DNA of 64,000 nucleotides from Owenia fusiformis (lineage: Eukaryota > Annelida > Polychaeta > Sabellida > Oweniidae). This document shows positions 9,181 to 60,656 of this stretch, piece after piece (position 1 is the first letter of the stretch; each line of letters starts with the position of its first letter). Below the pieces are notes generated by a model. It was not told the origin of the DNA, made no database searches, and saw only the letters and a program-made list of their open reading frames with translations. Location: NCBI GenBank assembly GCA_903813345.2, contig CAIIXF020000006.1, positions 36,306,436 to 36,370,435 on the forward strand. Direction: 5' to 3'. The position numbers and the translations under genes were made by a program.

Positions 9181-9688
9181 AATGTTTAAAGACCCGAGAA
9201 GAATGCATGGCTTTGAGCAAAATGAAGCAAAAAACCTCAGATTATAATATATGTGATTACTAGATCAATGCCATAGCACAAATGAGAGGGAACATATTTT
9301 ACACGACTATTCCGGGGACTATTCTCATACCAGAAAGTGGAAAAATCCGACCATTGCCATACCTCAAAAGTCATAGTTTGGAAGACATTCTCATACCAAT
9401 TGAAATCCTAAAATTTGGACCATTGCCATACCAAATGTCAAAAGAGGTACCCCACGTGAGCCCCACGAGGATCACTGTCAAGGTTTTTATACAGTGAACC
9501 CCCGGGTCCACGATGTATCTAGAATTACAGTCTCGTCGAGCATTGAAAAAGATGTCTAAACATAAATAACATTGAGGAATCGTCCACTGTAAAAGTATGA
9601 GATCTGCTCCATGGACTATTTCATAACATAGTTGAAGGATATACAATATAGGGCATTATCGAAGAGCCTTTAATCCTTGATATACAAA

Positions 9689-12301: not shown

Positions 12302-12762
12302 ATTTGATGAAAGCAAATATACGTTTGAGTTACGAGACCATCCGTCTAACCAATGAAGCAAGACGAGACTTATTCTTACACATTTAACATGTATTTTATG
12401 ACCATAGTAATGCTCAACCATATTGATTTTTCGTTTAATTCTAAATTTATGACTCTCTCCGGTGATCATCCTTTATATAACTCATACATCAATTTATTGA
12501 GCAGATGAAATAAAAGCCGATATCTCATATTTTTAAAGTAGATGATTCCTCTGTATAAATAATATACCACACTCTATCTAAAATTACAGTCTCAGTGTTC
12601 ACGCTATGGATAAACATAACATCTCATGTAATAAAGGATCATCTACTGTATGATATCTGCTCAATCTAAATTAATTCATTTAATATGTACAGTGAACTAA
12701 TACATAACATTGGATAATACGTATATTGCTTAATTAAAGTACATTTAAAGTGGATTTTTGGA

Positions 12763-17813: not shown

Positions 17814-19165
17814 TCAAGGACTGAACATTGACACATTATTGCATGCTTCAATTATATCATATTGTCGCAAGGTAGTTCCAAACGACCAATTTGGTTTAAA
17901 ATACCCCATTCCTTGTTGATTACTGGCTAAGTAACAACAATAGACATTAGTGTAACGATTATCTAATGATTCTGCCAGGCAACTTGCATCTGCATACATG
18001 CTTTGTTGTAGCTCGTATACAAGACGACCGACATTAGATGAAAATGTCCCGATGAAATAATCACATTCTTTCAGTAGCAGAACATCAAGCATTATGAGAT
18101 CTAAATCTGAAGAAAAGTAATTTGGTATATAAATTATGTTATACTGCGTGTAGTGTTCTTTGATCTGACCAATCAGCGTTCTGTCGTCTGATGCGATAAA
18201 TATAGATGGCAGTTCGTGACTGGTCATCCTGAAACCCAATTGGTTGATATATGCATCAATGCGTTCAATGTATTTGTACGTTGGAATTGGTTCGGCTTCT
18301 CTGATCTTGTCACCGCGTCGTATGTGGACTCCAATAATTGGATGTACGAAACCTATCGCTCGTTTAAGATCCTCTAATTGTTGATAGAAGGACGGGGAAG
18401 GCTGGATGAGTATCCCATCAATTGCCCAATTACCCACAAAGCAGGTGATTGGTGAAGTTGGGTGAGTTTGTACCATAATTCACTATTGACCATTAAGTTT
18501 TCAGGAAGTGGCATAGGCCATGTTTTACTATTAGGGGCCCCACTCATCGTCAGTGATAACCACACGACTTGAACATTACTCTTCTCAATATTCTCCAGGT
18601 CATACCAAAATGTATAGTTTGTGTATTGGAAATCCCAGCATTTAGTACTAGGTTGCAACAAGTAATAGTCCCAACTTTGAGGAATGAAATTCTCTTGGGC
18701 TCTTATCAACAACACTCTCTTGGTCGCTAAGGCAACGGAGAAACAATAACTTATTTGGTGAATCATGGATCCAAGGCCCCATGCCGCAAGAGGCCATTCG
18801 CACAATAGGTACTTCGCATTTGAACAGTCCGCCGGGTTCATTATTGCTTCCATTGACTGGAACATTCTAAATGACAACTGAGATGAAATAGAATTGTCTG
18901 TTTGGCACTTTCCCTGATACTGATGTACTGAGGGGTCTCCAATATTCCTATGTGATCCAAGTTGATTCCAAGTATTTTGGCTGCCACTATGTGTCCTTTG
19001 TTGTGAAGTTTTGTAGTTTTGCATTTGGCTTAAAGGTGTGGTGTAACTGGATTTCATTGTCGGAATGTGATCACCCCATGTCCAAGCATAGCTGTACAAT
19101 ATGGTAAGTCCAAGCAAAACTAGAAAGAACACTTGAATCATCAATATTCGGCCAATACTCTGCAT
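17814..19165 (-). pseudogene. FUT8-like (GT23) copy C, inverted, one-base frameshift
   Basis: Full-length third paralogue on the opposite strand. It starts at ATG 19163-19165 (MQSIGRIL, with the same anchor and stem as copies A and B). The frame runs to about 18411, where copies A and B have GGATACCTCATCC and this copy has GGATACTCATCC. The loss of one C shifts the frame just after GQLMGY and would end the protein about 11 residues later. The remaining catalytic half (HIRRGDK, TFSSNVGR) is open in the next frame down to the stop at 17814. Apart from the one base the gene looks intact, so a sequencing or assembly error, or a very recent inactivation, are the alternatives. The 5' flank (about 19200-19320) resembles the flanks of copies A and B. 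Confidence 0.85.
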
Positions 19166-20173
19166 TTCAGAAATTAACAATCAAAGGTATTTAATTAAGC
19201 ACTATACATGTATAGGTATCAATGTATGTATTATCCTTCAACAATGTTATGCATGAGTTCTATGTGCATATTAGAATAAAGCAGATCTCAAACATATGCA
19301 GTAAATAATTCCTCAATCCTCATTTAGTATATTCAAATATCTTGCTCATTCACAAACATGACAATGCATGTCCCATTATAATGACTGTAGAGTCATAAAT
19401 GTCATAAACAAAGAAAAATCAATATATGATATAATATATGTATTTTCTAGGGAATTTACTATCTAATAGACTAACTTTCTCACGGCTTATCATTGACTAC
19501 ATACAGTGACAGAATAAACGGGTGTACACTTTAGATGACAGTACGTTGTTATTTCCGCTATTTTGGACCGCCATTTTATTTGTGTTGCATGATTTTAAGG
19601 TGACGTCCCCAAAAACTCATTGTGTACGAGTATCGTTTATTTGACCGTATTGAAAAACATTTGTTTTATTGGAAAGAGTTTATGCTTTTATGCTAAATAA
19701 TTTGTTGATAGTTTCCCCTAGCTCGTACCTAATAATTCCAATATAAAAATATGACTTACAATACATGATTCGTTATTGCAATTCAAACATGACTCTGGTC
19801 AATGATGAAGTATGGTTGACAAATAAATGATCTAAAGAATTTACCAAACCCACATAGACATGATAGATATACTTGTATCATATCTTAATGTCCTTTTATA
19901 TTTCAATTTTATCATATCACTCAAAGCCCCGCTTCTAACATGAGCTCATTACTCGGGATGTCAGCGGGGCCTACTGGATGGTCCCTGTGTAATTGACAAA
20001 CTGTACATTGCTTTAATTTGATTAATTCGATTGAGTGTAATACATGTTTGAGGAAAATAGATGCAACAATCTCTCCAAAAATGATGGACGGACAGTAATC
20101 TTTTAAAAATGTGTAACACAGCCTCCCTTTTGTCTGGATTATGACCACTTCCACTGCTTCTCTATGATATCCC
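19166..20173. other. Intergenic region, 5' side of copy C
   Basis: 19200-19320 is homologous to the 5' flanks of copies A and B, so promoter DNA was copied with the genes. The rest shows nothing recognisable. Confidence 0.45.
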
Positions 20174-32767: not shown

Positions 32768-35700
32768 ATGGCCAGTGACGATACAGAACAGGAGGTACAT
32801 GTTAGATTTTATATCAAATTTCCACATCATTCCTTTGATAATTGCATATAATTTGACATTACATAATAATATAGTAAGTTTTCAGAAATGTATCGAAAAT
32901 AATGTAACAAATCACCTAAAATAAAAACTGGAGAGAGAAAATGAAAAGGATTGAACTTGTTTTTGTCCACCCTGTATTCATCAATTTTTGTGAGGTCATT
33001 GAAATATATATAAACCTGTATAAGATTGCTTTTACAAAGAAAAATTATCTGCTAAAATAACTATTAAAGTCATGAAAAATACACGTCTGGTGATCCACTC
33101 GATTAAGCTGGTTACCAAAACGGTTCATTTTGGTAACAAAATGTCGGAACGTCGAAGGTACGATTTTTCTTTTTTCCTTAATTCACGCGTTGTAGGCAGA
33201 ATCCCCACGACGTTTTTGATTTAATTCCTCACTTAAGTTACATAAACGGTTTTAGTTAAAAGTGCAGATCTTAACTGTTTTTCGAAAAACTGTTTATGTA
33301 ACTTAAGTGAAGAATTAAATCGACGATTCTGTTGTCTTCTGAACTATTTGTTCGCACATATGTACATTTTCTTAAACATATGATACTGATACACGTTTGT
33401 GTTAAAAAATGTCGTGGGAATTCTGCATACAACGTGTGAAATAAGGAAAAGAAAAAAATCGTACCTTCGACGTTCCAACATTTTGTTACCAAAACGAACC
33501 GTTTTGGTAACCAGCGTAATCGAGTGGATCACCAATGAAATAGCTAATGAATGATGAAACATATTTTCAAAGTTTGTTGATATTTTTAGACCCTGGATGT
33601 AAACAACCTTAACTTCAGTGACCTTGACATCACATCTGAGGACTTTTGGCTTGAAGAGGTTGATGGTAAGACCTAACTTTACTTTGGAGCATTGTAGTTT
33701 ATGTTTTAGTTGCCATATACAGGGTGATCATATAGTAAGATCAAAAGTGCTTCACTATTTGTAAACATTATGAACCTGGCTCATTTTCTCACATAATGTT
33801 GATCTAATAATCAATTATACATACACAAGATAAATTCAGTGTTCTATGGTAACCATGTCGACCCAATAGTTAGAGCACTTTTGATCTTACTTCATGGTCA
33901 CCCTGTATGTAGTAGAACCCAGTGGTTGAAATGAATAGTAAATTCTCTCCTATGCATTACAACAAAGTAGTTAACATTTCATTTCACCCTTCCTATTTCA
34001 CCCTAATGTGAACATGTAATGAAATTTATTTGAATTGAATGTCATACTCGTAGTCTATGAATTCCAATGTAATTCAATGAACTATGCTGTTAAAATTATT
34101 TTTTTCAAATATTTTATGCACTAAAACGATTTCTTGACTATGGTATGGATTATCTTGTTTCAGTTCACATACAAAAAAATCTTGAGGATGAAATAGTTAA
34201 AGAGGCATTGAAAACAGTAAGTATGACATGGATATCTTGTTCAAATAATCCCTTCGGGTATATGCTCTTTCAATTTTGAGAAATAATATCCTCCCATATT
34301 AAAAATCAAGATTAAAATCCATCGATAATTTTCGAATGATAGCTCATTCGTCCAATGTTACTTCTTTCTATGCTTGCTGTGGGTTGTTGATTTTATGGAA
34401 TTGTGTTTCTCCATTACCATGGTTACCTTATGATTGCCACATTGTACTTTATGATTGCCACATTGTTTATCATAATTGCAACATTGTACATTATACCATA
34501 TAATTGCCCCTTTGTACCTTATAATTGCCAAATTGTATCTTGTAATTGCCACATTGTACCTAATGACTGCCACATTGTTTATCATAATTACCACATTGTG
34601 TGTCATTGCTTAAATCTGGACATTTTGTATTGTTATTACCACATTGTGAATGCTGATTGCCACATTGTATTTTACTATTTAGTTGGCATCTTGCACATTG
34701 TTACTGGCGCATTGTGTAATATTATATTTGCCACATTGTATGTTTCAGGGAGTGGACCTTCGCCAGTACTCCAGAGAAGTTGAGAAAGAACTCCTTGATG
34801 TTGAGAATGCATCAATTCAAGATTGTATCCTTTGTAAAGTTCATGTAAAGTTTTCCTCAAAACTCAGACCACTAACTTATTACATATAATCCCTAAGTGT
34901 GTATGTCTTGATTTAGGAATAAAGATTGTAAGATTTATGTTATAATATTTGACCCCCCTGGCCCAAAACCAAAATGTTGTAGGGCCTCAATAAGTGGGCA
35001 TTACTTGGCCTTTCTTGGGCCAAATTATTTTAAAATTTGCCTTAAATTTTCAAAAATTTTTCAAAAAAATCTCTCCTCCAATTTTTTTTATTTTTTGAAA
35101 TGTGCTCCCCCTTATTAGCTTCTTGACCTGCCAGTGTGACGCCTGTTTAAATGTCACCACAAAGAAGTATTGACATCGTAAGATTGTTATTGACACTATT
35201 TTTTGCCAAACATGCATTTAGGGATTTTTACACTTGTAAAAACAATAAGGTGGTATTTGGTCATGATACTCAGATTTGTTTCTGATTGATGTTAAAATAA
35301 TGTCAAATAGAACGTACTCAGGCCCGTAGCCAGGATTTGCCAAGGGGGGGTTCAGTTTTCAAAAATTTCCAGGGGGGGTTCACATTTGACAATTTTGGCC
35401 CAAATATGGCTAAAATCACTTGAAAAGTGCTCAAAATGGTGAAAAACTGCATGATTTTGAAAGAATTTTTGGCCAGGGGGGGGGTTCGCCCGAACCCTGC
35501 GAACCCCCCCTGGCTACGGGCCTGGTACTTGAAAGTTCCTTGACTGACTTAAGATATCAAAGAGGGGCAGAATATTGCAAGCCTCCACAAACAGATTGCT
35601 GCCTGTGATACTATTCTGGAGGTTAGAACAAATAAAGCTTTAATTTACAACATTATAAATTCATTTGCAAGTCTAGTTATTACAAGTGACCCCCACTACC

Positions 35701-38700
35701 CACTCATTGAGTAGTGGGGGGTCAGTGGGTATTGGGGGGTAGTGGGGGTAGATTTACACAAAATCAAATTACTATATGGACATACCAGTTGTTTGCGTTA
35801 TTTTTTTCTCTATTTGAAACTAAGATTGAAACTAAGATTGACTGGATTTCTTTAGCACCTTGACAAATACCTAGTTTTCAATTGAAGAGTTTGGCTCTTA
35901 TTAATTGTTTTCTGAAATCAGATTTATGCAGTCTTAACCCACATTTTTAAAGGAGGTTTGTGATTATTTTCAACTGCTATTACTTATATTGCACAAACTC
36001 CCTGTTATTATTCCAGAGAATGGAGTCAATGCTGCACACATTCCAAAATGATTTAGGGAGTATAAGCAATGAAATACAAAGTCTTCAGGAGCAGTCAATA
36101 GCAATGAATGTGAAGTTGAAGAATCGACAGGCTGTAAGAGGAGAGCTGAGTGAATTTGTTGATGAAATGGTTGTCCCTGAATCAATGATTACGTGAGTCG
36201 AGTTTTGGAATATTTAGGTCAGCTGTACAAATTAAGGGTCTAACGGTCAACCGAAACTGAGGGACTCCGCAGTTCTTTGGCCTCGGTCTGTACATTCGGT
36301 TCGAAAATGTTATGGTTTGGTTTTTCAACAGTTCGTTAATTCAGAAAAAGATTGCCGTTCGCAAAAATATTGACTTTCGCTAAAGTGATAAATCCCGTTC
36401 ATAAAGCTTTTTTTCTACTAAAAACATGGTCAGAATAGAAGAATAAAAAGTGATGAACAATTTTAAGTGAAATAGCGAGATAATCATCAGTATTTGGAAA
36501 AAAACACTGAACAATCATTTCAATTTTACCGTGTGCAGAAACGTACGGAGCTGGGCAATTCTTAGGAGGCTATTTAGTACTTTTTGAATTGACCGCACTG
36601 CCATCTTTATAACTTCATGAAAATATTTTGAAGTCCAAATTCATTCATATAACTAATAACAATCAGACACCTGTACTGTTTACAACTGCATAAAATTGAT
36701 TCTACAGATATATTTGAATAATATATATTGATTTATTTTAATGTTCATTAATAATTAATATTGTATTATTTGTTGATCCTCATTGTCAATAGACTTAAGA
36801 AGTTCATTATGTTCCCTTTAAAGAAGTTCAATTCAAAAGATATGCAAAGTTCCCCTTTTAAAATACTGATCTCTACAAACTCTGAAAAAAGCTTGTAGGT
36901 TAATACATAGTCTAGCAGTAATAACAGTATTTTTTTTTATTCCAATGTTATGTAGTATTCTGCACATTCGATGACCAATTTTATAAACAGGCCTCATTTG
37001 CCATTGACAAAATGTTCGCTGTTGTTTTATGAGTATTCTCTACAAGTTTGGATCGAGTAACCTTAATAGTATTACCGTAGTTTTTAAATGATGATGTTGA
37101 AATGATATTAATTGAAATAAACACCTTTTCCACGATTTCAAATGTTACTTTACGCATGCGCAGCACTGTATGAGCACGTGCTCATGATTGTTCACATGAT
37201 CACATCCTGCAATTTGATTGGACGTCATATAATGGGGAATCCCCGAATACAATATAATCTGAAAGAATTGTCGGAGCTACTCACTTCTTCTGGTTATTAA
37301 GCATACAGGTTTATTGGGAAATCTAACAAACTCGACACCTACTGACAATGCAATGAATGACTCCCAATTGATTGTTACCACCACAAGTGATGACAATTAT
37401 TGTTATTGTGGATGGTTTTCAGTGGTTTGTGTTCGATGGTTGGCATCTGTAACAAATGGCAGGTGGTTACATTTTGCCGATGCTAACCACCCTTGAAATA
37501 TTTCTGTTTGAATTGTTGCAATGCATCATTAATAGTGTTTATGTGCTAAAATCAACCTACTGCATTATAGGCACATCCTTGAGACACCAGTGACTGAGAG
37601 AGGCTTTTTAGAACAACTACAGGAGCTCAATCACAAGATCACTTTTGTCAAGGAACAGTCATTCAAGGAAGCCAGATCATGTGGGGATGTCAAGGACATA
37701 TTAGAAAAACTCAAAATGAAGGTACAGGGACGTATATTTCTGGAGCACACCATTTCTGTAGCACACCATTTTTGTAGCACACCACTTTTATTGCACTTTT
37801 TCAATGTATTATATTGTTCATCTTGACCTAGGGGGTGTGCGTGTTCCTTGAATTTTGATACTTCTACATTGAAACCTGTCCTTTCAGAAAGTCACTAGGA
37901 TTGGGAAAAATTGTTCCATATGAGATTAGAAAAGAGATTAGAATAATACAGGTACAGTAGATGGTAGAACCGGTATATCTGACAGGCCCGTAGCCAGGAT
38001 TTGCCAAGGGGGGGTTCATTTTTCAAAAAATATCCAGGGGGGTTCACATATGACAAATTTGGCTCAAATATGGCTAAAATCACTTGAGAAGTGCTCAAAA
38101 TGGTGAAAAACTGCATGATTTTGAAAGAATTTTTGGCCAGGGGGGGTTCGCCCGAACCCTGCGAACCCCCCCCCCCCTGGCTACGGGCCTGTCTGAGCAC
38201 CTGGCTAATCCGAATCCTCCCAATCTGAACACCTTTCTTCTGTCCAACTTTTTCCTCCCATTGACTTTGAATTGAATTGAATCCCATTGAATTAACATAT
38301 CTAATCTGAACACTTTTCATAAAATTTCACATGTTTCATACTAAATTGCTCAAATATTGTTGTGATATCAAAACTTTGGGAAAATAGACAGGTTTTATTG
38401 TATATGTTTATTTTATTGATCAATTTATTGTATATTGTATATGTTTCTTTAATTGATCAATTTATTGTATATGTTTATTTTATTGATCAATTTATTGTAT
38501 ATGTCTATTTTATTGATCAATTTATTGTATATTGTATATGTTTATTTTATTGATCAATTTATTGTATCTTGTATATGTTTATTTTATTGATCAATCCTAA
38601 ATACATTAACTCAAGAAAATCATACTCACTAATTCCCTTCTGTCATTCCAGGCCATATCAAAGATAAGAGAATACCTACTCAACAAGATATACACGTTTA

Positions 38701-41700
38701 AGAAGCCGATGACCAACTACCAAATACCACAAAATGCCATGTTAAAATTCAGGTAATTTTATCTTGCAATATACAAAAGGATAAGTCACATGTCAGAGTA
38801 GAGAAGGCTGAGTCGGTTTGAGACACGATGAAAATAACTGGTTGTGTTCAGTTATGAAAATCCATCATTAAGGAAATTTATACCATTCATGACTTTATGT
38901 CAGGGGAATTAGTCCTGTATTTTTTTTTTTTTATTTCAAAGGTTTTTCAATGAGTTCCTAATGACGAATGAACGACATGTAGCGAGAGAGATTCGGGATG
39001 AGTACGTCGACACAATGTCCAAGATTTATTACTCATATTTCAAGTCTTATACTAGTCGACTTATGAAGCTACAAGTAAGTGAGGGTCTCTAATTAAAGAG
39101 ATTCTAAGGCAATAGTAAAATTAGTAAGGCAATTGACTTTAGCCAAAAATACCTGTGGAATTAAGTATGCACATTAGCAAAATCCCAAATTTTAGTATTT
39201 GGACCTTTCTGAAAGTGTTCAATAGACTTTTTTGTCAATGTATGTGAATTTAAATTCTCTTTATTCCACTCAACATTTAAAAAACTGAGCTAACCTTCAG
39301 TAATTTTAAAATGGATTATTTTCATTGCGTATTGGTAGTTTTGATAGATGTTGTGGTATGGATGCAGTACAGTATAGTCAGGAAGGCAATTTGCCCCCCA
39401 ACCCCTAACTTTGCTTTTGAATTTAAAAAATTGATTCCTTTAATTTTGCCTATTCAGTTTGAAGAGCTAGCAGACAAAGATGACCTCATGGGCGTTGAAG
39501 ACACCGCCAAACGAGGATTCTTCTCCTCTAAACCCTCGCTAAAGAACCGCTCCACTATATTCACCCTGGGTCAGAGGGGCGTTGTCCTGGCAGCTGATCT
39601 AGAGGCCCCTATCATCGTACCCCATGCAGCACAGAAGAATGAGGCAAAGGTACTGTAAAGCTTAAGAGGAGGGAAAACCCCATGATTCAATTGATGACAT
39701 AAGATTTCCTCCTTCGAGCACCTCCTTTCCCGGAAGTACTTACCCTCCATCTTGGTTTTCAAAGTTTTCAAATTGACCTAGTTTTAAACCAATCAACGAT
39801 CGACTCGCTAAACCAATCAGCTTAAAACAGATTTACATTATAAGCGTATGTCATCTTTGAACCCTGGGGTTTCTCCCCCTCTTGTAAAGCTTGTATATTC
39901 AAGTTGAAACATCTCTCTAATTCAAACACATTTCAATGTTAACATATCTTAATCCAAATTTTGCTATTTCCCATTGGCTTACATATTAAGAGAACTTGAA
40001 AAGTGAACATCTACTAATCCAAACATTTTTAGTCAGTCCTTTTTTTATAAAATCAAACTTTATTAATAAACTTATTTTACAATGCATGCATACAATTAGA
40101 TGAAATACAATTATAAATATTTCAAGTTACATAGTTACATCTTTCTTATCATTATTTCAGTATCAAATATAGCTTTTAAATTACCAGCTGTATTGACCCT
40201 TTTTTAAAATCATATATAGCTTTTGAAATTACCAATGTTTTAAGTAAATCTTCCTTTTTAACAATTGCATTTCCAATTTTTTGATCATATGTAACATTTA
40301 CATCATTCCAAATTGATTTAATTTTCAGCCAGTCCTAGTGGCAATCAAAGTAGAAAGGTGTTGATATGTTTTTTTAAATGTATGGTTGAAAACAGCTTTA
40401 ATAAGCAAGTTCTGAGAAGGGCTCAGTATTCAAGAGGCCCTATTTTTTCACTAAGTTGTCTACATCATATGAGGATGATGTACATAAAGCTCTCAGAAAG
40501 TTTTAAAACATATCAAAGTTCACAAACCTATTACAGTTATGTTTTCATTATTTAAGAAATATAGACCGAATAGCAGGGGTAATATTGTCGAATACATCCC
40601 GCAGGGCTAGGCACAAACGTTTTCTGTACCCTGAACGACCGAAGGGAGTAAGGGGTTCGAAAGCTTTTGTGCCTAGCCCTAAGGGGTGTATTCGACGGGA
40701 TTACCCCTGCTCTGAGGTCTATATTACGATTCGAACATGAAAACTCACCCAAAATGTTTCGAATATTCATTATGGTCCGCCATTACTACGTTCCGCCGTT
40801 ATGACGTCACACATTACAAGTATTACCAGGGGCAATGTTTGCGAATATACCCCGAGTGAAATGGTGACTTTGTTTACAGTTTATAGAAGGCCTGAATACA
40901 GTCATGTTCGAATTTATTTTATAACCCTATGATTGACAAACAGGTCAAAAACTTCGGAATTGTCATATTTGCAGAAAATGTAGTGTATATTTACACAAGG
41001 CAAATTTATCCAATATTCTGAGTTGCAGAGTCCGGCTCCTAATCTGTCATTAATTAGTCAGAGTCATATCCATAATTTTTATTATTCTTGTAGCATTTTT
41101 CGGAGAAAGCATATTGTGTTATAAAATATGGACAGAAAATATTCAAAATCAAATACAAATGTTCAGCATCACTTGGCATTTCCTGCTCCTTTATGAAATC
41201 TTTAATATCTAAAATCTGTACCATTGCAGCATTCCTTTGAGAGCCTGTTCCGCAGCCAGCAGTACGCCTTGCTCGACAATTGCTGCAGAGAATTTCTGTT
41301 CCTCGTTGACTTCTTCATGGTGCAACAGTCGTCGGCCCAAGACCTCTTCAATGCCATCATGGGAAAGACACTGTCCATGTTTCTGGTAATTATTATCACC
41401 AAATATTATTAATACGAAATTCCAGTAAAATCTGTGTTTAGTGATCACCGTGAAGCCACAAAAAGTGTTCACTGTAGGTAGGTGTTCCTTACAGAGAGGG
41501 GATTTTATACAGAAATCAATGTTAAATGTGTCCTTAAGTGGTACTCACTAAACACAGGTGTTCACAAGAGAAAGGTGTTCACTTAGACAGGTTTTACTGT
41601 AATGTTGAATTACATATACATGTAGTATCTGTTGTTAAAAGTCATTCGCTATAGCAACCAACTGTATGCTAGCAAAGGGCAAAACTTTGATATAATAGCT

Positions 41701-44700
41701 TGATTTTATCAGTTTTCAGCACTTGTTGCCTCTATTCTACTTGTACTTGTTCTGCAAAATGCATACCTTAACAGTCGCATAAGAAGTTTTCCAACCTCAC
41801 AAAGTGAGATAAAACTAACCCCAATATAGAGACCCAAAGCGCCACCTATATCGCATAAAAGTTGCGCTCCTTCGTACTCAACTTTTTGTTTCGTAACTTC
41901 CGTACTCAGATCACCGAAAGATATACTCAAGGATACCATGTTTTTTCGGATGGTGTCAGCGTGCGTTCGATTGGTTATTTGATAATGGTTTCTCTCAATC
42001 TCGGAAAAGTTAATATACTTTTGTATCATCTGCTGTCCCCGGGTATTTCTCTCGGGTGATTGTAGTATCATTTTTAAGATAAAACCCTGTATCACCTCAT
42101 CCGGCCAGTATGCTTGAGAAATACTTTTCGAGTAGGATATTTCCTTGCACGCTGGCAGACATTCTTCGCAGTTCAGTGGGGTTTCCATCTTTTCATTCAC
42201 TGTTTTGGTTAAACAACCTAAATGTGTAAAGTCTTTTGATAAAATATCCATGTTTCCACGAGAGGTTGATAAATTCATGAAATAAACCATTTCTTTGTAA
42301 ATGTTTTCGCTATCTAGTTTTGTGCATATCTTAAGTGTGTTATTTGGAGGTATGGGGTGCCAGCTCGATACGCAACCACAAGTTTTCATTAAGTTCTTTT
42401 GAAAACATTGCGCTTGACAGCCTGCTTGGGTGTAGGCATATTTGGTTCCTTCCAGTAGCTTTCGGTTGGTACATTCACTATAGGGCAGTCCCAGTCTTTC
42501 TATCTTGTGTTGCTTTAAAGTGATAGTTGAAGCGTATCCCGGTGGAATGTCAAAACCAGTAGCTTTCGGGAAAGTTATAGTGTCTTTTGGGTGTACTGTT
42601 ACGCGAAGGCCGATGTTGCCACTTGTAATGACATCTTCGTTAAAGTACGAACCATATGGTAAAATCTCTGGGATAAAGGCATCAAGAAATATCTTAAGGT
42701 GGAGACCAGCATCCGTAGTGCTTGCCTTAATCCGTGTGTCAATATCCATGTTGACATCTTTGCCATTGAAAGTATAACAGTGGTTCAATTCAGGATGTAG
42801 AAATTGACCGAAGTGACTAGTATTACAATCTCTACCTGCAAAACGGCATTTGATTATTAAACCATCTAGATCATGGCCAACGTCAAGTCTGTCCTCTGTC
42901 AACATATTGTCTAGTGCTATTGACCCAGTAATAAATAAGTCCTCAAATTGTGAGAAGTTTTCATGGCTATGGTCCTTTAACAGTTGGTAGTTTATAGGGA
43001 TTGCACTCCATATATTCACACTTGTTTCTCCACTAAAGTTGTAGCTTATGTATTTCATCCTTGAAAACCCTAATGTAGGACATATTGTGACAGACGGCAT
43101 CTCAATGACTACGTTGTCAACTTGGATAGTATCTTTGTACTGGAACTTAAAAAAAGAGTTCAGTTGAAAGCCAATATTTACGACAGCAGCTCCCGTACAT
43201 GTTAACAATATGCAAACGGAAATAAGCTTTCCGACTGTCGTTTTTGAGTTAGCAATCAGTCCAGGCCCATGCGGTGTTGCATTCTCAGAAAATTCACGCA
43301 GAATCTCCTTAGGGTTAAATTGTTTTTCTGTCTTTGCCATGTTAGAAGCGTGACACTGGAAGCAGCCCACTTTTTGTGTATCTCTTATTTTGATCAGTTC
43401 ATGTAAATAGTTCTATAATTCAGCTCAACATTTCATTTCATTAAACCCAGAACATTAAGTTCATTTCCGACTAGTCTTTGTGCTTGTTAATGCTTTTGCC
43501 GCAATATTATCATTTCTTCTTACTGGTTTAATTTTTGTTTGACATTGGGCGAATTTAAGGGCTTAATCTGAAACAAAAATTTAATATCCTTCCACAAATC
43601 TGTCTGAATGACTTATGAAACGTGCATTCAATCAGTGATTTGGTGTTGTGCAGTAGTCATTACTTACTTATACATTTAGACTATTATAGGCTTTCAGACC
43701 CTATTATTGAGATTCAAGGAGCTATTAGCCATTTTAAGTGATAAGTGGGCTGCTATGGTGTTTACTCAATCTTAATTTGTCAATAATTTAGATTGTTATG
43801 GAGCTTTATAACATTTGGTCAATTTTTCTTAATTGCAAATGGCATAAGTACATCTACCCATATATTTGCTGTAAATGGGTTTATTAGCCTCTTCCAATTT
43901 ATTAATGTAGATGTATTATGTCTATTGTATTTCTAATATATGTAAGAGAGCAGAAAATCAATTTTTATTGATGTTACAAAATCACATTAATTCTGTCATT
44001 AACATAACTAATTGCAAAGATTGATATTTTCATGTTTGCTCTCAACAGCAATATAATACAACTCAATATTAAATTTGTTGTGAAATTGCATTTATTCTGT
44101 AATTTATGTAATTTATTGCTGAAATTGAGCTAATGGAACTCAAGAACTCGTAAAATTCCCAATGGTTTACCAAAAATGCACAATATTTTAAAGGTTGTGT
44201 TTGTAGTTTCATTTAAAGATCCTGTATTAAGTTTGAAAATATAGTTGAATCATGAAAATATGAATTTTTCTTAACTTTTAACAATTTGAGACCTTTTTTT
44301 TATTTTATTTTAATTTAATGTATTTTACTCTTGTTATATGTAAAGAATTGTTTGGATGTACCACTTAAATTCATTATGTAATTAAATAAATATATGAAGT
44401 CCAGGACCCGAAAGGATAACCATAAAATGATGTGACTCTACTAATATTTGCAGAAGCACATGGACACCTATACTAATGATTGCTTCGACAGTATCGCCAT
44501 TTTCCTTTGTATCCACATCATCTTCCGCTTCCAAGTGATTATGCATAAACGCAATGTACCAGCATTGGACAAGTAAGTCATTGGCATTCTCCTGTGTATA
44601 TCCATATCATAGATACTGAACATTGGTTGAGATGTTGTGGTCTTGTTGCCATAGATACTAAATAAGTGTATATTCTTGCTTAGATACTTGGAGACATTGC

Positions 44701-47700
44701 CTGAAATGCTGTGGCCTTGTTGCCATAGATACTTAATATTGTTTATTCATTGCCTAGATACTGGGAAACATTGCTGGAGATGCTGTGGCCAAGACTTGAG
44801 ATGATACTCGAGATGAATATACAAAGCATCAGAGAATGCGAACCTTCTAAACTTGGACACATAGATGTTAGGCCTCACTATGTAAGTTCAGTTTTGCGTC
44901 ATACCAAAATGACCTATAAACAATTTGGAAACTAACACCATTCCCAACAAGTATATAGGTTATTAACTAAGAATATATAGCATATCAATAACTTGAAAAC
45001 GAACACCATTCCCAAAGAATAGCCTATTAAACAGTTTGAAATCAAAACCATTCCCAAAATAGCCTATTAACAGTTTGGAAACAAACACCATTCCCAAAGA
45101 ATAGCCTATTAAACAGTTTGGAATCAAAACCATTCCCAAAATAGACTATTAACAGTTTGGAACAAACACCATTCCCAAAGAATAGCTGATTCATTTTGAA
45201 GCTAATTTGATCTGAGTATGTTACCTGAGCTACATTGCATAAAAAGTTTTTAAAGCTGAACCTATAGATCTCTTCTCTGTTTCCATGGTTACAACATGTT
45301 TACTAAAAGTTAAGAATTTTCTGATCATGTATCACTGATTCAACATGAATTTCAGTTTCATCGATGAAGATATATTTCTCAAGAAAAAAACTACTTTTTT
45401 CCAGATTACACGTCGCTATGCAGAGTTCTCCGGGGCCATTGTTAGTATCAATGAGAATTTTCCAAATGACCGTGTTAATAAATTACTCGCCAAACTGCAG
45501 ACTGAAGTGGACAATTTTGTGCTGAGAATGGCTGCAGAATTCCCACTAAGAAAAGAACAGCTGATTTTCTTAATTAATAACTATGACATGATGCTTGGTG
45601 TCATAATGGTGAGAATTCATTTTGTTTTTATTAATAACTATGACATGATGCTTAGTGTCATAATGGTGAGAATTTATCTTGTTTTTATTAATAACTATGA
45701 CATGATGCTTAGTGTCATAATGGTGAGAATTTATTTTGTTTTTATTAATAACTATGACATGATTCTTAGTGTCATAATGGTGAGAATTTATTTTGTTTTT
45801 ATTAATAACTATGACATGATGCTTGGTGTCATAATGGTGAGAATTTATTTTGTTTTTATTAATAACTATGACATGATGCTTGGTGTCATAATGGTGAGAA
45901 TTTAGTTTGTTTTTATTAATAACTATGACATGATGCTCAGTGACATAATGGTGAGAATTTATTTTGTTTTTTATTAATAACTATGACATGATGCTTAGTG
46001 TCATAATGGTGAGAATTTATTTTGTTTTTATTAAAAACTATGACATGATGCTTAGTGTCATAATGGTGAGAATTCATTTTGTTTTTATTAATAACTATGA
46101 CATGATGCTTGGTGTCATAATGGTGAGAATTTATATTGTTTTAATGTCAAGTGGTGACAGATTGTAACAGTTATTATTATGCACTTTTTAAATGGTGTCA
46201 TTTTGTCATGTTAATCTCTTGTTTGTATGTCACCAACATATATAGTCTCCAACTTTTTTGTGGATGATGTTTAGCATTAGGCAGTCTGTGTTCAACAGTC
46301 TGTAACAAATGGCAGGTGGTGAAATTTTGTGTGTTAATGCCTTGTTGATTCTATTATCAATGCAACAACGAGAGAAATCTGAATTGCATGGTGTCTGTAT
46401 TCCAGGAAAGGACCAATGAGGACTCGGCAGAATCAGAGAGTTTCAAACAACTATTGGCTGCCAGGACGCAGGAGTTTATAGAGGAGATACTAGCGCCACA
46501 TTTTGGTGGGATGATGATGTTTGTGAAAGAGGTTGAGGCCGCGGTGGAGAAAGGGAATATGGACTCACTCAAGAACCAGAATCAAGAAAGTATGAGTAAC
46601 TTTACCGTTTGATATTTATAGAGCTGCAGAACTTATTGTTTTATAGAACAAAGTTTGAGAAGGAATATAGAGAAAATGTTCGTTGATTTGTGTGTAGGTA
46701 ATTAACTCAAATGCATATTGACATGGAAAGTTGATTATCATAAAAATAGACGTCAGTATATAGACTACCATCATTATGTCACTACCGGTGTGAAAGAAAT
46801 TATGGTCCCCTGGGGATTATGGTCCCCTTTCCAAACGGCCCTTATTGGCCCTGATTGTGTATAAGATAATTAAGGGAAAGGGTTGTATTTAGGTCACCAT
46901 ATAAATCAATGGAGAGTAGGACCATAATTTGATAGGACCTCCTACCCTTTTACACCTGCACCAGAAGTGGTGACAAATTGTTATAGTCTCCAACTTTTTT
47001 GTGGCTTGTATTTGGCGGTTGGTGTTGGGTGCTCAGTGAACGGTAGTTGACATGTAATAAATGTCAGCTGCTGACATTTTCTCATAATGCCTTGTTGTGT
47101 GACGTTTTCCCATAATGCCTTGCTGTGTGACGTTTTCCCATAATGCCTTGTTGTGTGACATTTTCCCATAATGCCTTGTTGTGTGACATTTTCCCACAAT
47201 GCCTTGTTGTGTGATGTTTCCCATAATGCCTTGCTGTGTGACGTTTTCCCATAATGCCTTGTTGTGTGACATTTTCCCATAATGCCTTGTTGACTGTTGT
47301 GTATTTGTAGGGAGAGTCCAGCAGTTGGTAAGAGGGTTTAACAATGATTGGAAGAAAGCTATTGACCTCATCAACCAAGATGTCATGAGATCTTTCACCA
47401 ACTTCAAAAATGGAACACAAATACTCCAGGTTACTATGGTTACATACATAAATATAGCTACTTACCTGGGGGCCATTAACAGAAGCTTCATAAAGTTAAG
47501 AATTCGTAAAACCATGGGTTTTCAACTCTAATTGAAAGCCCATGGTAAAACCCATTGTTCTCTAACTGTGACATCATTATATCCATGGTTACAACAATTG
47601 ATTTACGAATTCGTAACTTAACTAAGTTTCTGTTAATGACGCCCTGTATAACATAATTGAAATACAAGGTGATCCAGAAGTAAAATTAAAAAATTAACCA

Positions 47701-48601
47701 ATCAAAGAATTGAGGCTCAAATTATTTTTGCTAAATAAATGAAGACAACAGGTAAAATTAATGGAAACCATAAATTTAACATGGAAAAGTTGAAAAGTCC
47801 CTAAAAACAACAGACGATTTGGTGAAAACAATTAGTCAAAATCGCCTGTCGCCTGCTGCCAATGAAACCCCCGAGGTGTCAACTCAGAAATGCTTGGGGA
47901 ACATCTGTTCCAATTTTCAAGAAGATTTCATGCTGAATGTACATAGCGATCTGATCCAGTTGATTATTAACAGTATATGTTTGTCATAATAATATCATAT
48001 TGAATGTTAATATGTGATAGGTTATCCCGACTGAGATGTTGTTGAGTGGTTTAAATATTTGATTGATACTCCCTCGTGGTCACTTTAGCCCAAGACTTCT
48101 GTATCTGAATGATTTACTTGTAATTGAGGTTGATCTTACCCAGTTGATCATTTGTTTAATTGATATTTGACAAATTGCCAACTGTTGTAATAATTGTTTA
48201 ATACACTCTTCAATCCCTTCAAGCCAATACTTTACTCTATATGGATGATTTATCTGTAGTTTTGTATATATTCAAGGGTGCCATGACCCAGTTGACAATA
48301 TGTATATTTGCCATATGACAGGATGCCCTGAGTAACTGTTGTTGGGTGGTTTAGTAATATTTGATTGATAATCCTTCGTGGTCCCTTCAACCCAAGACCA
48401 TTCTGCACGTGGATGATTTATCTGTTTCATTAAAACTTAGTATGTATATTCCAGGGAGCCCTGACCCAGTTGATCCAGTACTTCCACAGGTTCTCGAAGG
48501 TCCTCTCTCAAGGCCCATTTAGAAACCTGCCAATCAGGAATGAGCTCATTAACATACATCATGTTATGGTTGAAGTGAAGAAGCATAAACCAACATTCTA
48601 A
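32768..48601 (+). CDS. VPS52: Vacuolar protein sorting-associated protein 52 (GARP/EARP subunit)
   Basis: Seventeen coding exons: 32768-32794, 33590-33665, 34164-34216, 34749-34824, 35554-35621, 36017-36192, 37571-37721, 38652-38752, 38942-39074, 39458-39649, 41230-41385, 44454-44572, 44758-44881, 45405-45608, 46406-46589, 47311-47429 and 48455-48601. All are GT-AG and the phases close exactly: 2106 bases, 701 residues (human 723). The product is collinear with human VPS52 throughout: LEDEIVKEALKTGVDLR, NRQAVRG, KKPMTNYQIPQ, EKDDLMGVEDTAK-like, RSQQYALLDNCCRE, RRYAEFSGAIVSIN, INNYDMMLGV, QDVMRSFTNF and the end VKKHKP. VPS52 is the shared coiled-coil subunit of the GARP (with VPS51, 53, 54) and EARP (VPS50) tethers for endosome-to-Golgi and recycling traffic. 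Intron 11 contains a DEG/ENaC gene on the opposite strand. Tandem arrays touch several exon borders. An untranslated first exon nearer RPS18 is possible. Confidence 0.97.
33088..33534. mobile_element. Foldback element in VPS52 intron 1
   Basis: TGGTGATCCACTCGATTA at the left end and its inverse at 33517-33534. Inverted arms extend about 150 bp (GGTTACCAAAACGG, AACGTCGAAGGTACGA). The arms also contain an inner palindrome around CTTAAGTTACATAAACGG / GTTTATGTAACTTAAG. It ends 55 bases before exon 2. Confidence 0.85.
33720..33905. mobile_element. MITE with CAGGGTGATCA ends, TA duplication
   Basis: 186 bp in VPS52 intron 2. TA flanks both ends; inverted arms run from CAGGGTGATCATATAGTAAG to the inverse, and include GATCAAAAGTGCT. 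Confidence 0.82.
34423..34742. repeat. Minisatellite (ATTGCCACATTGT unit) abutting the VPS52 exon 4 acceptor
   Basis: Irregular units of about 20-24 bp sharing ATTGCCACATTGTA fill the end of intron 3 and stop six bases before exon 4 at 34749, so the polypyrimidine and branch region of this acceptor is repeat-derived. Confidence 0.85.
35319..35524. mobile_element. MITE of the CAGGCCCGTAGCC family, copy 3, TSD GTACT
   Basis: Perfect 5-bp duplication GTACT (35314-35318, 35525-35529). The element ends 29 bases before VPS52 exon 5, leaving very little native sequence for a branch point. Confidence 0.9.
37440..37495 (+). repeat. Dispersed 110-bp repeat, third copy (partial)
   Basis: Contains ATCTGTAACAAATGGCAGGT and ACATTTTGCC; lies in VPS52 intron 6. 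Confidence 0.55.
37983..38191. mobile_element. MITE of the CAGGCCCGTAGCC family, copy 4, TSD TCTGA
   Basis: 5-bp duplication TCTGA at 37978-37982 and 38192-38196; very similar to copy 3, both with a run of ten or so C near the right end. In VPS52 intron 7. Confidence 0.9.
38391..38597. repeat. AT-rich minisatellite in VPS52 intron 7
   Basis: TTGATCAATTTATTGTATAT recurs six or seven times with a spacing of about 30-45 bp. Confidence 0.88.
40558..40725. mobile_element. Hairpin MITE (AATATAGACC ends)
   Basis: 168 bp in VPS52 intron 10. Arms carry AGCAGGGGTAAT, GTCGAATACA and GGGCTAGGCACAAA and their inverses. A partial relative follows at about 40825-40855. Confidence 0.82.
41709..43340 (-). 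CDS. DEG/ENaC (amiloride-sensitive sodium channel) family protein
   Basis: Intronless gene of 543 residues nested in VPS52 intron 11 on the opposite strand. I start at ATG 43338-43340 (MAKTEKQF); the frame is open ten codons further but with no ATG. The cytosolic N-terminus has the family His-Gly motif (NATPHGPG). TM1 (about residues 37-57) is followed by MPSVTICP. The extracellular loop has the Cys-rich segment AGCQAQCFQKNLMKTCGC and CLPACKEISYSKS. TM2 contains GALGLYIGVSFISLCE, where the selectivity filter usually reads G-A/S-S; here it is G-V-S (507-509). The short C-tail has several Ser/Thr. Expected to be a trimeric, sodium-selective, amiloride-sensitive channel in the plasma membrane, gated by acid, peptide or force depending on the subfamily; the subfamily cannot be told here. 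Lack of introns suggests origin by retroposition or a lineage-specific intronless expansion. Confidence 0.93.
   Translation of the reverse strand: MAKTEKQFNPKEILREFSENATPHGPGLIANSKTTVGKLISVCILLTCTGAAVVNIGFQLNSFFKFQYKDTIQVDNVVIEMPSVTICPTLGFSRMKYISYNFSGETSVNIWSAIPINYQLLKDHSHENFSQFEDLFITGSIALDNMLTEDRLDVGHDLDGLIIKCRFAGRDCNTSHFGQFLHPELNHCYTFNGKDVNMDIDTRIKASTTDAGLHLKIFLDAFIPEILPYGSYFNEDVITSGNIGLRVTVHPKDTITFPKATGFDIPPGYASTITLKQHKIERLGLPYSECTNRKLLEGTKYAYTQAGCQAQCFQKNLMKTCGCVSSWHPIPPNNTLKICTKLDSENIYKEMVYFMNLSTSRGNMDILSKDFTHLGCLTKTVNEKMETPLNCEECLPACKEISYSKSISQAYWPDEVIQGFILKMILQSPERNTRGQQMIQKYINFSEIERNHYQITNRTHADTIRKNMVSLSISFGDLSTEVTKQKVEYEGAQLLCDIGGALGLYIGVSFISLCEVGKLLMRLLRYAFCRTSTSRIEATSAEN
44609..44757 (+). 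repeat. Two decoy copies of the VPS52 exon 13 acceptor and start
   Basis: The acceptor plus the first ~33 bases of exon 13 (real exon at 44758, TAG|ATACTGGGAAACATTG) occur twice in intron 12: TAG|ATACTGAACATTGG at 44613 and TAG|ATACTTGGAGACATTG at 44684. Spacing is 71 and 74 bp. The second decoy still encodes YLETLPEMLWP where the exon encodes YWETLLEMLWP. An array of three units, of which only the last is exon. Confidence 0.85.
44925..45190. repeat. Tandem repeat in VPS52 intron 13
   Basis: ACACCATTCCCAAAGAATAG and TAGCCTATTAAACAGTTTGG alternate over about five units of 40-60 bp. Confidence 0.85.
45567..46138 (+). repeat. 57-bp array made from the VPS52 exon 14 end and its splice donor
   Basis: Ten copies: the first is the last ~40 bases of exon 14 plus its donor; nine more follow in the intron. 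CTATGACATGATGCT occurs at 45581, 45638, 45695, 45752, 45809, 45866, 45923, 45981, 46038 and 46095. Every unit repeats ATAATG|GTGAGAAT, the authentic donor (45608/45609), and 57 is a multiple of three. The frame stays open through five more donors until TAG at 45903-45905. Confidence 0.95.
46235..46345 (+). repeat. Dispersed 110-bp repeat, fourth copy
   Basis: AGTCTCCAACTTTTTTGTGG through CTGTAACAAATGGCAGGTGG to GTTAATGCCTTGTTGATTC; ends about 60 bases before VPS52 exon 15. Confidence 0.7.
46978..47300 (+). repeat. Dispersed repeat copy five with a 28-bp minisatellite at its end
   Basis: Starts as the 110-bp dispersed repeat (TATAGTCTCCAACTTTTTTG). Its last segment, CATAATGCCTTGTTGTGTGA, is then repeated about eight times with a 28-bp period (47084, 47112, 47140 ...). 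The array stops ten bases before VPS52 exon 16. Confidence 0.9.
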
Positions 48602-48619
48602 GACTATAGGGTAATAGGA

Positions 48620-48990
48620 GATATGATGCAGGATTTAGATGAACTGCAGCATGATAGGTGTGATGCAGCACAATAAAGACTTGATGCAGCACTATCTAGA
48701 AGTGCTACAGCACAATTAAGAATTGATGCAGTGCAGTCTAGATGTGCTGCAACACATTAAAGATTTGATGCAGCACTATGTAGAGGTGCTACAGCACTAT
48801 TAAGAATTGATGCAGTGCAGCCTATATGTGCTGCAGCACAATAAAGACTTGATGCAGCACTATCTAGAGGTGCTACGGCACAATTAAGAATTGATGCAGT
48901 GCAGTCTAGATGTGCTGCAGCACAGTTAAGACATGATGCAGCACTATCTAGATGTGCTGCAGCACAAATAACATGCAGCATAGTCTAGAT
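48620..48990 (+). repeat. 42-bp tandem array in the VPS52 3' end, carrying AATAAA
   Basis: GATGCAGCACTATCTAGA and TGCAGCACAATAAAGACTTG alternate. AATAAA hexamers lie at 48672-48677 (71 bases after the stop) and 48840-48845, so the probable VPS52 polyadenylation signals are inside the repeat. Confidence 0.85.
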
Positions 48991-49246
48991 TTGGTGCAGC
49001 ATGTTAAATCATATGATGTATTACAATTTACAACATTTCCAAATAATAACACACACCCTATATTGCCAATTCTTCACTGTGCCAATTTTGGTTCGATAAG
49101 CACCAATAGATTGTTCCGCTAAATCCTGTCAACTTTTGAGGTAATAGAAAAACTATGATATATCGGCTAAATTGATGATGTCATTGGTTCTAGATATAAA
49201 TCTGATCATGCAAAAAGATAATTTTTTTTGTTCAAAAAATACAACC

Positions 49247-56145: not shown

Positions 56146-59100
56146 CTATGGCCAGTTACATGTGAGTATGCTTTGGTCCCACTCCAAGCCAGGGGGGCAT
56201 GGCATCACGAATGAACCTCCCCATTCATCACACTGACAGAAATGGTACGCATCAGGGCCAGGGAAATAAAAGTTGCCTTTGTCTATGTTATCCTGTGTGC
56301 AAGGGTTCGGGTCGCAGGTCCCAGGGACTTTTTCTGGTGGTTTGTTGGGGTCTTCAATGCACGTCTTCTTTGCTTGGTCCCATAATTTCCATTCACCGCA
56401 AGGGATGATCCAACTAAAACGACAATCACCGATTTAGTGACATATTGAAGATTCAAATGTTATTCCAGTTATGACCACATCAAGGTCAGGCCCAAAATAA
56501 ACTTTTGTCAAGGGGGTTCACTTTTCAAAAAATTCCAATGGGGTTCACATTTGACAATTTGGCCTGAAATCACTTGTGCTAAAAATGGTGAAAAACTGCA
56601 TGATTTTTAAAGATTTTTTAACCAAAGTCCAGACCCCCGAACCCCCCTGTCTACGGGTCTGGAGAAACAGTTTGTTTTTCCATTATGATGGAAATTATAT
56701 ATCCTTTAATCTTATTCCGTAAATATGGGTTGCCCTTTTTCATTCTATTTCTAATCATAGTATTTGTATTTCATGAGCTATGACTTGTTATTGCAATTGC
56801 ATGTTATGAGATGGTGAAATGTGTGTAATACAACCTTAAGTCAACCTTAATCCTACCATTACTTTTAACAAACAAACAAACAAACAAACAAACAAAAAAG
56901 AAACCTACCCATTTCCACACTCATCACACTTGATATATTTGCTGTTATCCTCCGGATGTTCATGAAATATTTCTCCATTTTCTACACCATCAAGAGAACA
57001 CACTGCCATAGCAGAGGCTGGGATCACTCCAGGTACAAGGGATCTGCCATTCTTTGGTGTATTAACACAGACCTAATCAGAGATGTATAAGTATATTGTA
57101 TATGTTTCTACATTTTCAAAATTGATATTGAAAAATCCCTCCTAAAATATTCACATGGATCCCTGTGATCCCTGTATTTTATTCTTTGGCAGTTTTTAAT
57201 TTTTCAAAAATCATTAAAATTTAATATTAATGTTACATTTATTTAACCTATCAATAAAAATAATGTTACATTTATTTAACCTATCAATAAAATGATAATC
57301 AAACATGTGTAATTTATACCATAACTGACTGATCCCAAAATTGGTTTTCTGGGCAATCCTTCTCAAACTGTTGGCCGTGTGCGTCACACTGTATGAACTT
57401 GGTGGGGTCAATATGGGGGTGGTAGAAGATATTGTGCTCCATGGCTGTCTGAGTACAGGGGTTACACTGGCGAACCTTTGGGATTTCTGGAATATAATAG
57501 GTATAGCAAGGTTACCATAGTAACCAATGAACATGAAGTCATTTGTTGATTTAACTGTGAAAGTTTAACTGTGACCAAGTAATACTGATTTATAAATGTT
57601 TTGAAGCAAAATTATCTGTACTTATTTCACACTCTGTTTTATAGCTTATATGCAAGAACACATCGTACTCCTGCAGCTCGCTTCTTTTTTGGCTTGTTAG
57701 TCAATGACCCGGGAATTTAACTATACACCAGGTAGTAATTTCAGCATCTTTAGAATAGCACAAACTTGAAAGTGGTTTCATTTTGACTTGCCCTTCTGAA
57801 ACCCTTGTTACTAGTACGTCTAATGTTTGTCAAGCAAATCATAATGGTGCATAACAATCTAAACTTTATACAGGGTCTTTAAAGATCATTGTCAACCACC
57901 AACCTTTGCAGACATCACGTTGGATAGAGTAAACAACATCAGCAACTTCATCAAATGAGAACAGATGAGATGTATGGGTGCAATCTGGGTTGGATGCTAT
58001 CTGTGTTAGCTCTTCCTCATTCACTTCTGCAAAATACAACATGATACTGTTTAATTTTTGGGTTTGAGGCTATCTGGGTGCAATCTGGGTTGGATGCTAT
58101 CTGTGTTAGCTCTTCCTCATTCACTTCTGCAAAATACAACATGATACTGTTTAATGTTTGGGTTTGAGGCGATCTGGGTGCAATCTGGGTTGGATGCTAT
58201 CTGTGTTACCTCTTCCTCATTCACTTCTGCAAAATACAACATGATACTGTTTAATTTTTGGGTTTGAGGCTATCTGGGTGCAATCTGGGTTGGATGCTAT
58301 CTGTGTTAGCTCTTCCTCATTCACTTCTGCAAAATACAACATGATACTGTTTAATTTTGGGTTTGAGGCTATCTGGGTGCAATCTGGGTTGGATGCTATC
58401 TGTGTTAGCTCTTCCTCATTCACTTCTGCAAAATACAACATGATACTGTTTAATTTTTGGGTTTGAGGCTATCTGGGTGCAATCTGGGTTGGATGCTATC
58501 TGTGTTAGCTCTTCCTCATTCACTTCTGCAAAATACAACATGATACTGTTTAATTTTTGGGTTTGAGGCTATCTGGGTGCAATCTGGGTTGGATGCTATC
58601 TGTGTTAGCTCTTCCTCATTCACTTCTGCAAAATACAACATGATACTGTTTAATTTTTGGGTTTGAGGCTATCTGGGTGCAATCTGGGTTGGATGCTATC
58701 TGTGTTAGCTCTTCCTCATTCACTTCTGCAAAATACAACATGATACTGTTTAATTTTTGGGTTTGAGGCTATCTGGGTGCAATCTGGGTTGGATGCTATC
58801 TGTGTTAGCTCTTCCTCATTCACTTCTGCAAAATACAACATGATACTGTTTAATTTTTGGGTTTGAGGCTATCTGGGTGCAATCTGGGTTGGATGCTATC
58901 TGTGTTAGCTCTTCCTCATTCACTTCTGCAAAATACAACATGATACTGTTTAATTTTTGGGTTTGAGGCTATCTTGGTGCAATCTGGGTTGGATGCTATC
59001 TGTGTTAGCTCTTCCTCATTCACTTCTGCAAAATACAACATGATACTGTTTAATTTTTGGGTTTGAGGCTATCTGGGTGCAATCTGGGTTGGATGCTATC

Positions 59101-60656
59101 TGTGTTAGCTCTTCCTCATTTACTTCTGCAAAATACAACAAGATACTGTTTAATGTTTGGGTTTGAGGCTATCTGGGTGCAATCTGGGTTGGATGCTATC
59201 TGTGTTACCTCTTCTTTATTTACTTCTGCAAAATACAACATGATACTGTTTAATGTAGGGAAGCTCTTCCTCGTCATTTCTGCAAAATACAACATATTAC
59301 TGTTTAATGTTTGGGTTTGAGGCTATCTGGGGCAATCTGGGTTGGATGCTATCTGTGTTAGCTCTTCCTCATTTACTTCTGCAAAATACAACATGATACT
59401 GTTTAATGTTTGGGTTTGAGGCTATCTGGGTGCAATCTAGGTTGGATGCTATCTGTGTTAGCTCTTCCTCATTTTCTTCTGCAAAAAACAGCATGATACT
59501 GTTTAATGTAGGCAAGCTCTTCCTCGTTCATTTCTGCGAAATACAACAGATTACTGTTAAATGTTTGGGTTTGAGACTATCTGGGTGCAATCTGGGTTTG
59601 AGGCTATCTAAGCAAGCTTTTCCTCATTGACTTCTGCAAAATACAACATGTCTACAAAATACAACATGTTACTTGTAAATGTTTGGGTTTGTATGAATGT
59701 ATGTATCTGGGTACAATCTTAGGTTGAAAGGATATCTAGTTGAGCTCTTTCTCATTTATTACACTACAATAGAGACTAAGTGTATTGAATCTTAATACTC
59801 GACTGATGTCTTCTAATTCGAGATTTAACACATGTTCTCACGAAAAGGTACTGATTACAAAACTACCTGATCCAATTCCAATGGCGTAAATTCTGATATC
59901 AAAACTTTTGGCCAATCTTGCTGCAGCCACGGTTCCATGATAGTCTTGCGATTTCCCATCAGTGAGAACGATAGCGACTCTTGGACGATTCTCCGATTTA
60001 GGACGTGCCCCATGGCTCTCCGTAAAACTATCCTGGTACATAATGGTCAAGGCTGCTCCAGTGTTTGTGTGCCCTCCCTCCTCATAAGTAACCTTCAAAT
60101 GACACATTGATAGAATAAAATTATGAAATCCATTAAACACTTCTAATGTGTGAATATTCCATAGTGGCCATGCACTTAGTTACAACATATAAAGGTTCCA
60201 CCAATGTCTACACTGATCAAGCAGATGTCAGTCGTATTTGTATTCCCTAAAAATTGTGTATAAATGTATAGTTTGAATAATTTCAAAATCTGCTTTGTCA
60301 TACTTTCCAAAGAGTTCAGTGTGACAGCAAACAAAACTCATTGACAGAACAACCAAACATACAAACCAAACAAACAAACCAAACAAACAACCAAACCAAA
60401 CCAAACAAACAAACCAAACAAACCTGGTTTATAGCAGAAATGAGGCTATATTTATCAAGATGAGTATTCAATTGGAATTCCTCTGTCGCATGGTTACTGA
60501 AATGGATCAAGCCAACACGATTCTTCTCTGGACCAATTTCGAAGGCTTCAACGACCTTTCTGGTGAACTCCCTGATCTTCTCAAAGTTGTTGCTCTTAAT
60601 GCTGCCAGAGGCATCGAGAATGAATACAAGGTCCACCCCAGCGAGTTTGTCACATA
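56146..60656 (-). CDS. vWA domain plus three chitin-binding type 2 domains, secreted matrix protein (5' end outside window)
   Basis: Six exons in transcript order: 60656-60424, 60092-59867, 58026-57904, 57486-57320, 57072-56909 and 56413-56146 (stop TAG). All are GT-AG and in phase; the first exon seen enters at phase 1, so upstream exons, presumably including a signal peptide, lie beyond the visible part. The vWA domain is complete: VDLVFILDASGSIKS (MIDAS D-x-S-x-S), HTNTGAAL and VAIVLTDGKS supply the metal-binding residues. Three Cys-rich CBM14/peritrophin-A repeats follow (CNPCTQTAMEHN..., CSLDGVENGE..., CDPNPCTQDNID...), with the usual aromatic and W/Y-x-C spacing. The order vWA then CBM14 is that of Pif-type matrix proteins of mollusc shells. 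Predicted to be extracellular and to bind chitin or related polysaccharide, with vWA for protein contact. The intron before exon 58026-57904 is filled by a ~100-bp array copying that exon's acceptor. Confidence 0.92.
56487..56661. mobile_element. MITE of the CAGGCCCGTAGCC family, copy 6 (diverged)
   Basis: CAGGCCC at left and CTACGGGTCTG at right with the family interior (AAAACTGCATGATTTT). Target duplication no longer clear. In the last intron of the vWA gene. Confidence 0.7.
56866..56896. repeat. (AAAC)n microsatellite
   Basis: Seven or so AAAC units ending just before the exon border at 56909 (its donor side on the - strand). Confidence 0.9.
57968..59640 (-). repeat. 100-bp array made from a splice acceptor and the start of an exon
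   Basis: The true exon start (TTTTGCAG|AAGTGAATGAGG, exon 58026-57904) and 58 bases of its coding sequence form the first unit. GCAATCTGGGTTGGATGCTA recurs at a 100-bp spacing: 57980, 58080, 58180, 58280, then 99, then 100 again up to 59179, and finally three degenerate units to about 59640. Each unit contains the same acceptor and EVNEEELTQIASNPDCT coding, fused to a second partial copy (QIASNPK). Confidence 0.95.
60344..60423 (-). repeat. (GTTT/GTTTG)n microsatellite at a splice donor
   Basis: On the - strand the donor of the first vWA exon reads CAG|GTTTGTTTGG and runs straight into a CAAAC/AAAC-type microsatellite of about 80 bp, so the donor's +3 to +6 bases are themselves part of the repeat. 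Confidence 0.85.

Follow-up and report, generated by a model that had tools for sequence, protein, structure and literature searches.

The window, a stretch of 64,000 nucleotides, contains a VPS52 gene in which successive exons between 36011 and 45608 gave Pfam matches to Vps52_CC and then to Vps52_C. Each of these domains matches at this one place in the 498-Mb assembly. The gene model is partial and the exon numbers used here are those of the first-pass annotation. Exon 14 (45405-45608, plus strand; 68 codons in 204 nt, starting and ending in phase 0) was delimited by its Vps52_C match, an AG at 45403-45404, the GTGAGA at 45609 and its translation. The next exon (ERTNEDSAESESF..., 46406-46589, plus strand) was placed by its acceptor (TTCCAG/GAAAGG) and by the Vps52_C join. 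Joining 45405-45608 to 46406 onwards gave a continuous Vps52_C match (E = 2.5e-30), which confirms the earlier assignment of the exon to VPS52, and since this join restores the domain, the donor after 45608 yields the conserved product. A comparison of the protein encoded by exons 14 and 15 with solved structures gave no match. A single open frame of 567 codons (41709-43412, minus strand) encodes an ASC/ENaC-type sodium channel; it runs antisense to VPS52, between exon matches of that gene, and is apparently nested in one of its introns. Elsewhere in the window, three FUT8-like fucosyltransferase genes or pieces of genes (9674-11014, 12718-14118 and 17814-19180) form a local family expansion; the third, on the opposite strand, is spread over two overlapping frames and may be broken.

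The last 36 bases of exon 14 are also the first copy of a tandem array (45573-46142, plus strand), for which TRF reported a period of 57, 10.0 copies and 95% matches. Ten 57-bp copies of a VPS52 exon end with its splice donor had been described from a first reading, and both TRF and a unit-by-unit alignment bore this out; the exon share of the unit had been put at about 40 bases, whereas the alignment gave 36 bp of exon end (ATTAATAACTATGACATGATGCTTRGTGTCATAATG) followed by 21 bp of intron start (GTGAGAATTYATTTTGTTTTT). The units straddle the exon-intron boundary of VPS52, as the structural definition of the amphioxus "mirages" has it. By alignment, the last exon-like bases of the ten units lie at 45608, 45665, 45722, 45779, 45836, 45893, 45950, 46008, 46065 and 46122, and each is directly followed by GTGAGAATT (10 of 10 units). 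The donor ATG/GTGAGA is the same in all ten units, nine of which are spare sites, and this repetition of the splice signal is again that of the mirages. Copy 7 carries a 1-bp insertion, and the unit spacing is 57 throughout except for one of 58 after that copy; such a spacing and the per-copy differences are typical minisatellite features. All ten units share the 15-mer ATAATGGTGAGAATT unchanged, an invariance that says little, as the whole array holds about 11 independent changes and the 15-mer was picked post hoc. Neither a second copy nor a second allele of the 57-bp array was found in the 498-Mb assembly.

Arrays of this class recur at other exon edges, where they multiply both donors and acceptors. 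Within VPS52 itself, an acceptor array (44594-44790, plus strand) with a 74-bp unit and about 2.7 copies repeats an acceptor (CTTAG/ATACT-type) and the first ~33 exon bases of the preceding exon (44758-44881; KYWETLLEMLWP...). This array is older, with 80% matches, and its spacings of 71 and 74 shift the frame. A globin donor array (locus L033, positions 1690-2030) consists of two 171-bp copies, each with about 46 exon bases and a GTAAGT donor, and reading through it meets stops. A kinesin acceptor array (locus L067, C2:23265700-23270200) holds 17.9 copies of 159 bp that carry the acceptor and more than 100 exon bases of a motor exon; the upstream copies that were read close with PVAL-stop, and the final one continues into the full exon, VVNRDPQAAEILRLKQL. 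A different arrangement was seen in a myosin heavy chain gene (C9:37986009-37994334, minus strand, of which locus L068 is a part), where the exon for Myosin_head positions ~27-80 is present about 12 times in tandem. The spacing of these copies is irregular, and the protein sequences of the five that were read have diverged; the copies look like a large group of alternative exons, which may be mutually exclusive.

Minisatellites are dense in this DNA. The window has 11.9% of its length in arrays with a period of at least 15, and the interval 35000-49000 has 13.4%; one of the window's many minisatellites is a 100-bp array (57975-59254) of 12.8 copies with 98% matches. Nine VPS52 exons were located, and of their 18 edges two (11%) are covered by an array, as expected from a coverage of ~13%; these edges were taken from Pfam matches, and several are accurate only to within some bases. 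Across 52 globin, linker and kinesin loci, with a flank coverage of 6.0%, one of about 104 edges (that of the globin donor array) is crossed, where free hitting of edges would give about 6; here too the edges of the matches are approximate. Arrays at exon edges are thus no more frequent than density predicts, with no enrichment and perhaps a depletion.

The closest counterparts of the VPS52 donor array are the mirages of amphioxus (Adh3, BflGb6/BflGb9, TnC and PGBD5), minisatellite-like duplications of an exon-intron boundary, on the donor or the acceptor side, in which the splice signals are repeated. Adh3 data and globin RT-PCR suggest that regular splicing is undisturbed there (PMC3087553), and the same has been suggested for PGBD5 and TnC (PMC3902484). 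The present case differs in that its host is an annelid, in its unit of 57 bp compared to 10-72 bp in Adh3 and 150-160 bp in the globins, and in that regular splicing and length polymorphism or somatic instability belong to the description of the amphioxus mirages, whereas the VPS52 array is known from the sequence of one assembly. A cephalochordate host is where mirages have been described so far and is not part of their structural definition. Matches above cut-off to the C-terminal domain of haemoglobin linkers (PF16915) lie near the globin genes on C6, and this linker family is annelid. GFP, which is common in amphioxus, has no match in the assembly, a weak negative. As these signs point away from a cephalochordate, the VPS52 array was classed with the mirages by structure only, and on that basis it would add an annelid case to a class known from amphioxus. 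A search of the assembly for mitochondrial COX1 gave no match. A literature search, which was not made by gene name, returned no earlier report of the array.

We consider that the donor array is most probably a boundary minisatellite of the mirage type that the gene tolerates, with splicing mainly or only via the first donor, after 45608. A 57-bp segment that by chance straddled the VPS52 exon-intron junction would have been duplicated in tandem, and the array would then have expanded and been partially homogenised by slippage or unequal exchange. The first donor, which alone leads to the conserved sequence of VPS52, would be the one mainly or solely spliced; the remaining nine would be intronic decoys.

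The donor sites by themselves give no reason for the first to win, since their local scores are equal: with a simple approximate donor matrix all ten score 8.7 bits, and no further site above 5 bits was found by the same matrix in 45300-46450. Masking of the decoy donors by RNA hairpins was considered and rejected, as modelled folding does not single out donor 1. Folds of single units improved only slightly on shuffled sequences (z = -1.6 and -1.3). A two-unit fold did better (z = -3.5), which is what near-palindromic tandem copies should produce; accessibility in the model was similarly low at donors 1-5 and 8-10 and higher at donors 6 and 7. The equal scores leave room for splicing noise, in which some transcripts would use decoys and mostly be disposed of or be non-functional, and array length could mildly regulate VPS52 output. 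Donors 7-10 sit past an in-frame TAG (45903-45905, plus strand) that closes the frame ahead of donor 7 in translation, as had been noted for the seventh donor, and their use would send transcripts to decay. Mixed transcripts also have a precedent in human segmental duplications, where 66% of the intron changes driven by tandem repeats also have support from repeat-retaining transcripts (PMC2812944), so that minor VPS52 isoforms are plausible. The regular splicing reported for amphioxus genes with such arrays, however, argues against this noise, as it does against a functional role for the decoys, and we regard such noise as possible but rather unlikely; it can coexist with a tolerated minisatellite.

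A productive use of the decoys is harder to reconcile with the sequence. The frame of exon 14 continues open through copies 2-6 (45609-45902, plus strand), and translation agreed with the first-pass annotation that the identical donors at 45665, 45722, 45779, 45836 and 45893 keep the frame and would add 19, 38, 57, 76 or 95 residues without a stop. From this the array had been proposed as an isoform generator; the identity of the donors and the frame arithmetic behind that proposal hold, whereas the functional claim has no support beyond the open frame. An open frame of this kind has a chance probability of about 0.24, as a period is divisible by three in one case out of three and a run of seven intron codons is stop-free in about 70% of cases, so that about one array in four would have such an open, frame-keeping unit. 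The exon-like parts of the copies differ from the true exon by G to S (six copies), M to I, V to D and N to K, with only one synonymous difference, and the copies bear no mark of coding constraint. The insert is also strongly hydrophobic, with a mean hydropathy of 1.2 per unit (exon 14, 0.08; exon 15, -0.69), and with one added unit the Vps52_C match is kept but split at profile position 285 of 310. Judged from sequence, this would be an awkward addition within a conserved domain. Finally, the extra sites of the VPS52 acceptor, globin and kinesin arrays would not add a clean in-frame segment; as these three shift the frame or carry stops, frame-keeping is not a trait of the class, and as decoy use meets a stop in the globin and kinesin arrays, tolerance would be independent of coding content. 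VPS52 isoforms longer by multiples of 19 residues, made by productive use of donors 2-6, are accordingly improbable to our reading, despite identical donors and a frame open to donor 6. Very unlikely, too, is the broader proposal that an expanding minisatellite serves as a ladder of in-frame donors, by which the length of VPS52 would vary with array length between individuals in a non-cephalochordate animal.

It is very unlikely that the array is an assembly artefact: tandem arrays are prone to misassembly, and the amphioxus draft had one mirage assembled wrongly (PMC3087553), but the copies here differ by private substitutions and one insertion and similar arrays occur at other loci, so that a wrong copy number is possible whereas an artefactual origin of the array as such is unlikely.

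A tolerated boundary minisatellite in VPS52 can also be set beside other systems. In human segmental duplications, minisatellites likewise lie on exon-intron boundaries and such repeats can create introns (PMC2812944); those are recent paralogues with transcript-backed intron change, whereas VPS52 is a single-copy conserved gene. Duplications of the fourth exon of an earthworm metallothionein gene are missing from the final transcript (PMC12783039). In the potato RdRp gene, intron gain by tandem genomic duplication also involved a duplicated segment carrying a splice signal (PMC4974935), whereas the VPS52 array lengthens an existing intron with decoys and no new intron is evident. The intronic VNTR of ABCA7 is a tandem repeat in an intron of a protein-coding gene with a potential effect on splicing (PMC5954066); a splicing effect has been reported there, whereas for VPS52 the evidence is genomic sequence.

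Ten equal donors in a row offer a natural test both of the choice among identical splice sites and of the extent to which a conserved gene can tolerate expanding boundary repeats. Boundary arrays bear as well on intron lengthening and on intron gain via tandem duplication. The presence of four of them in a small sample of an annelid genome suggests that mirages, rather than being confined to amphioxus, follow from a minisatellite-rich genome.
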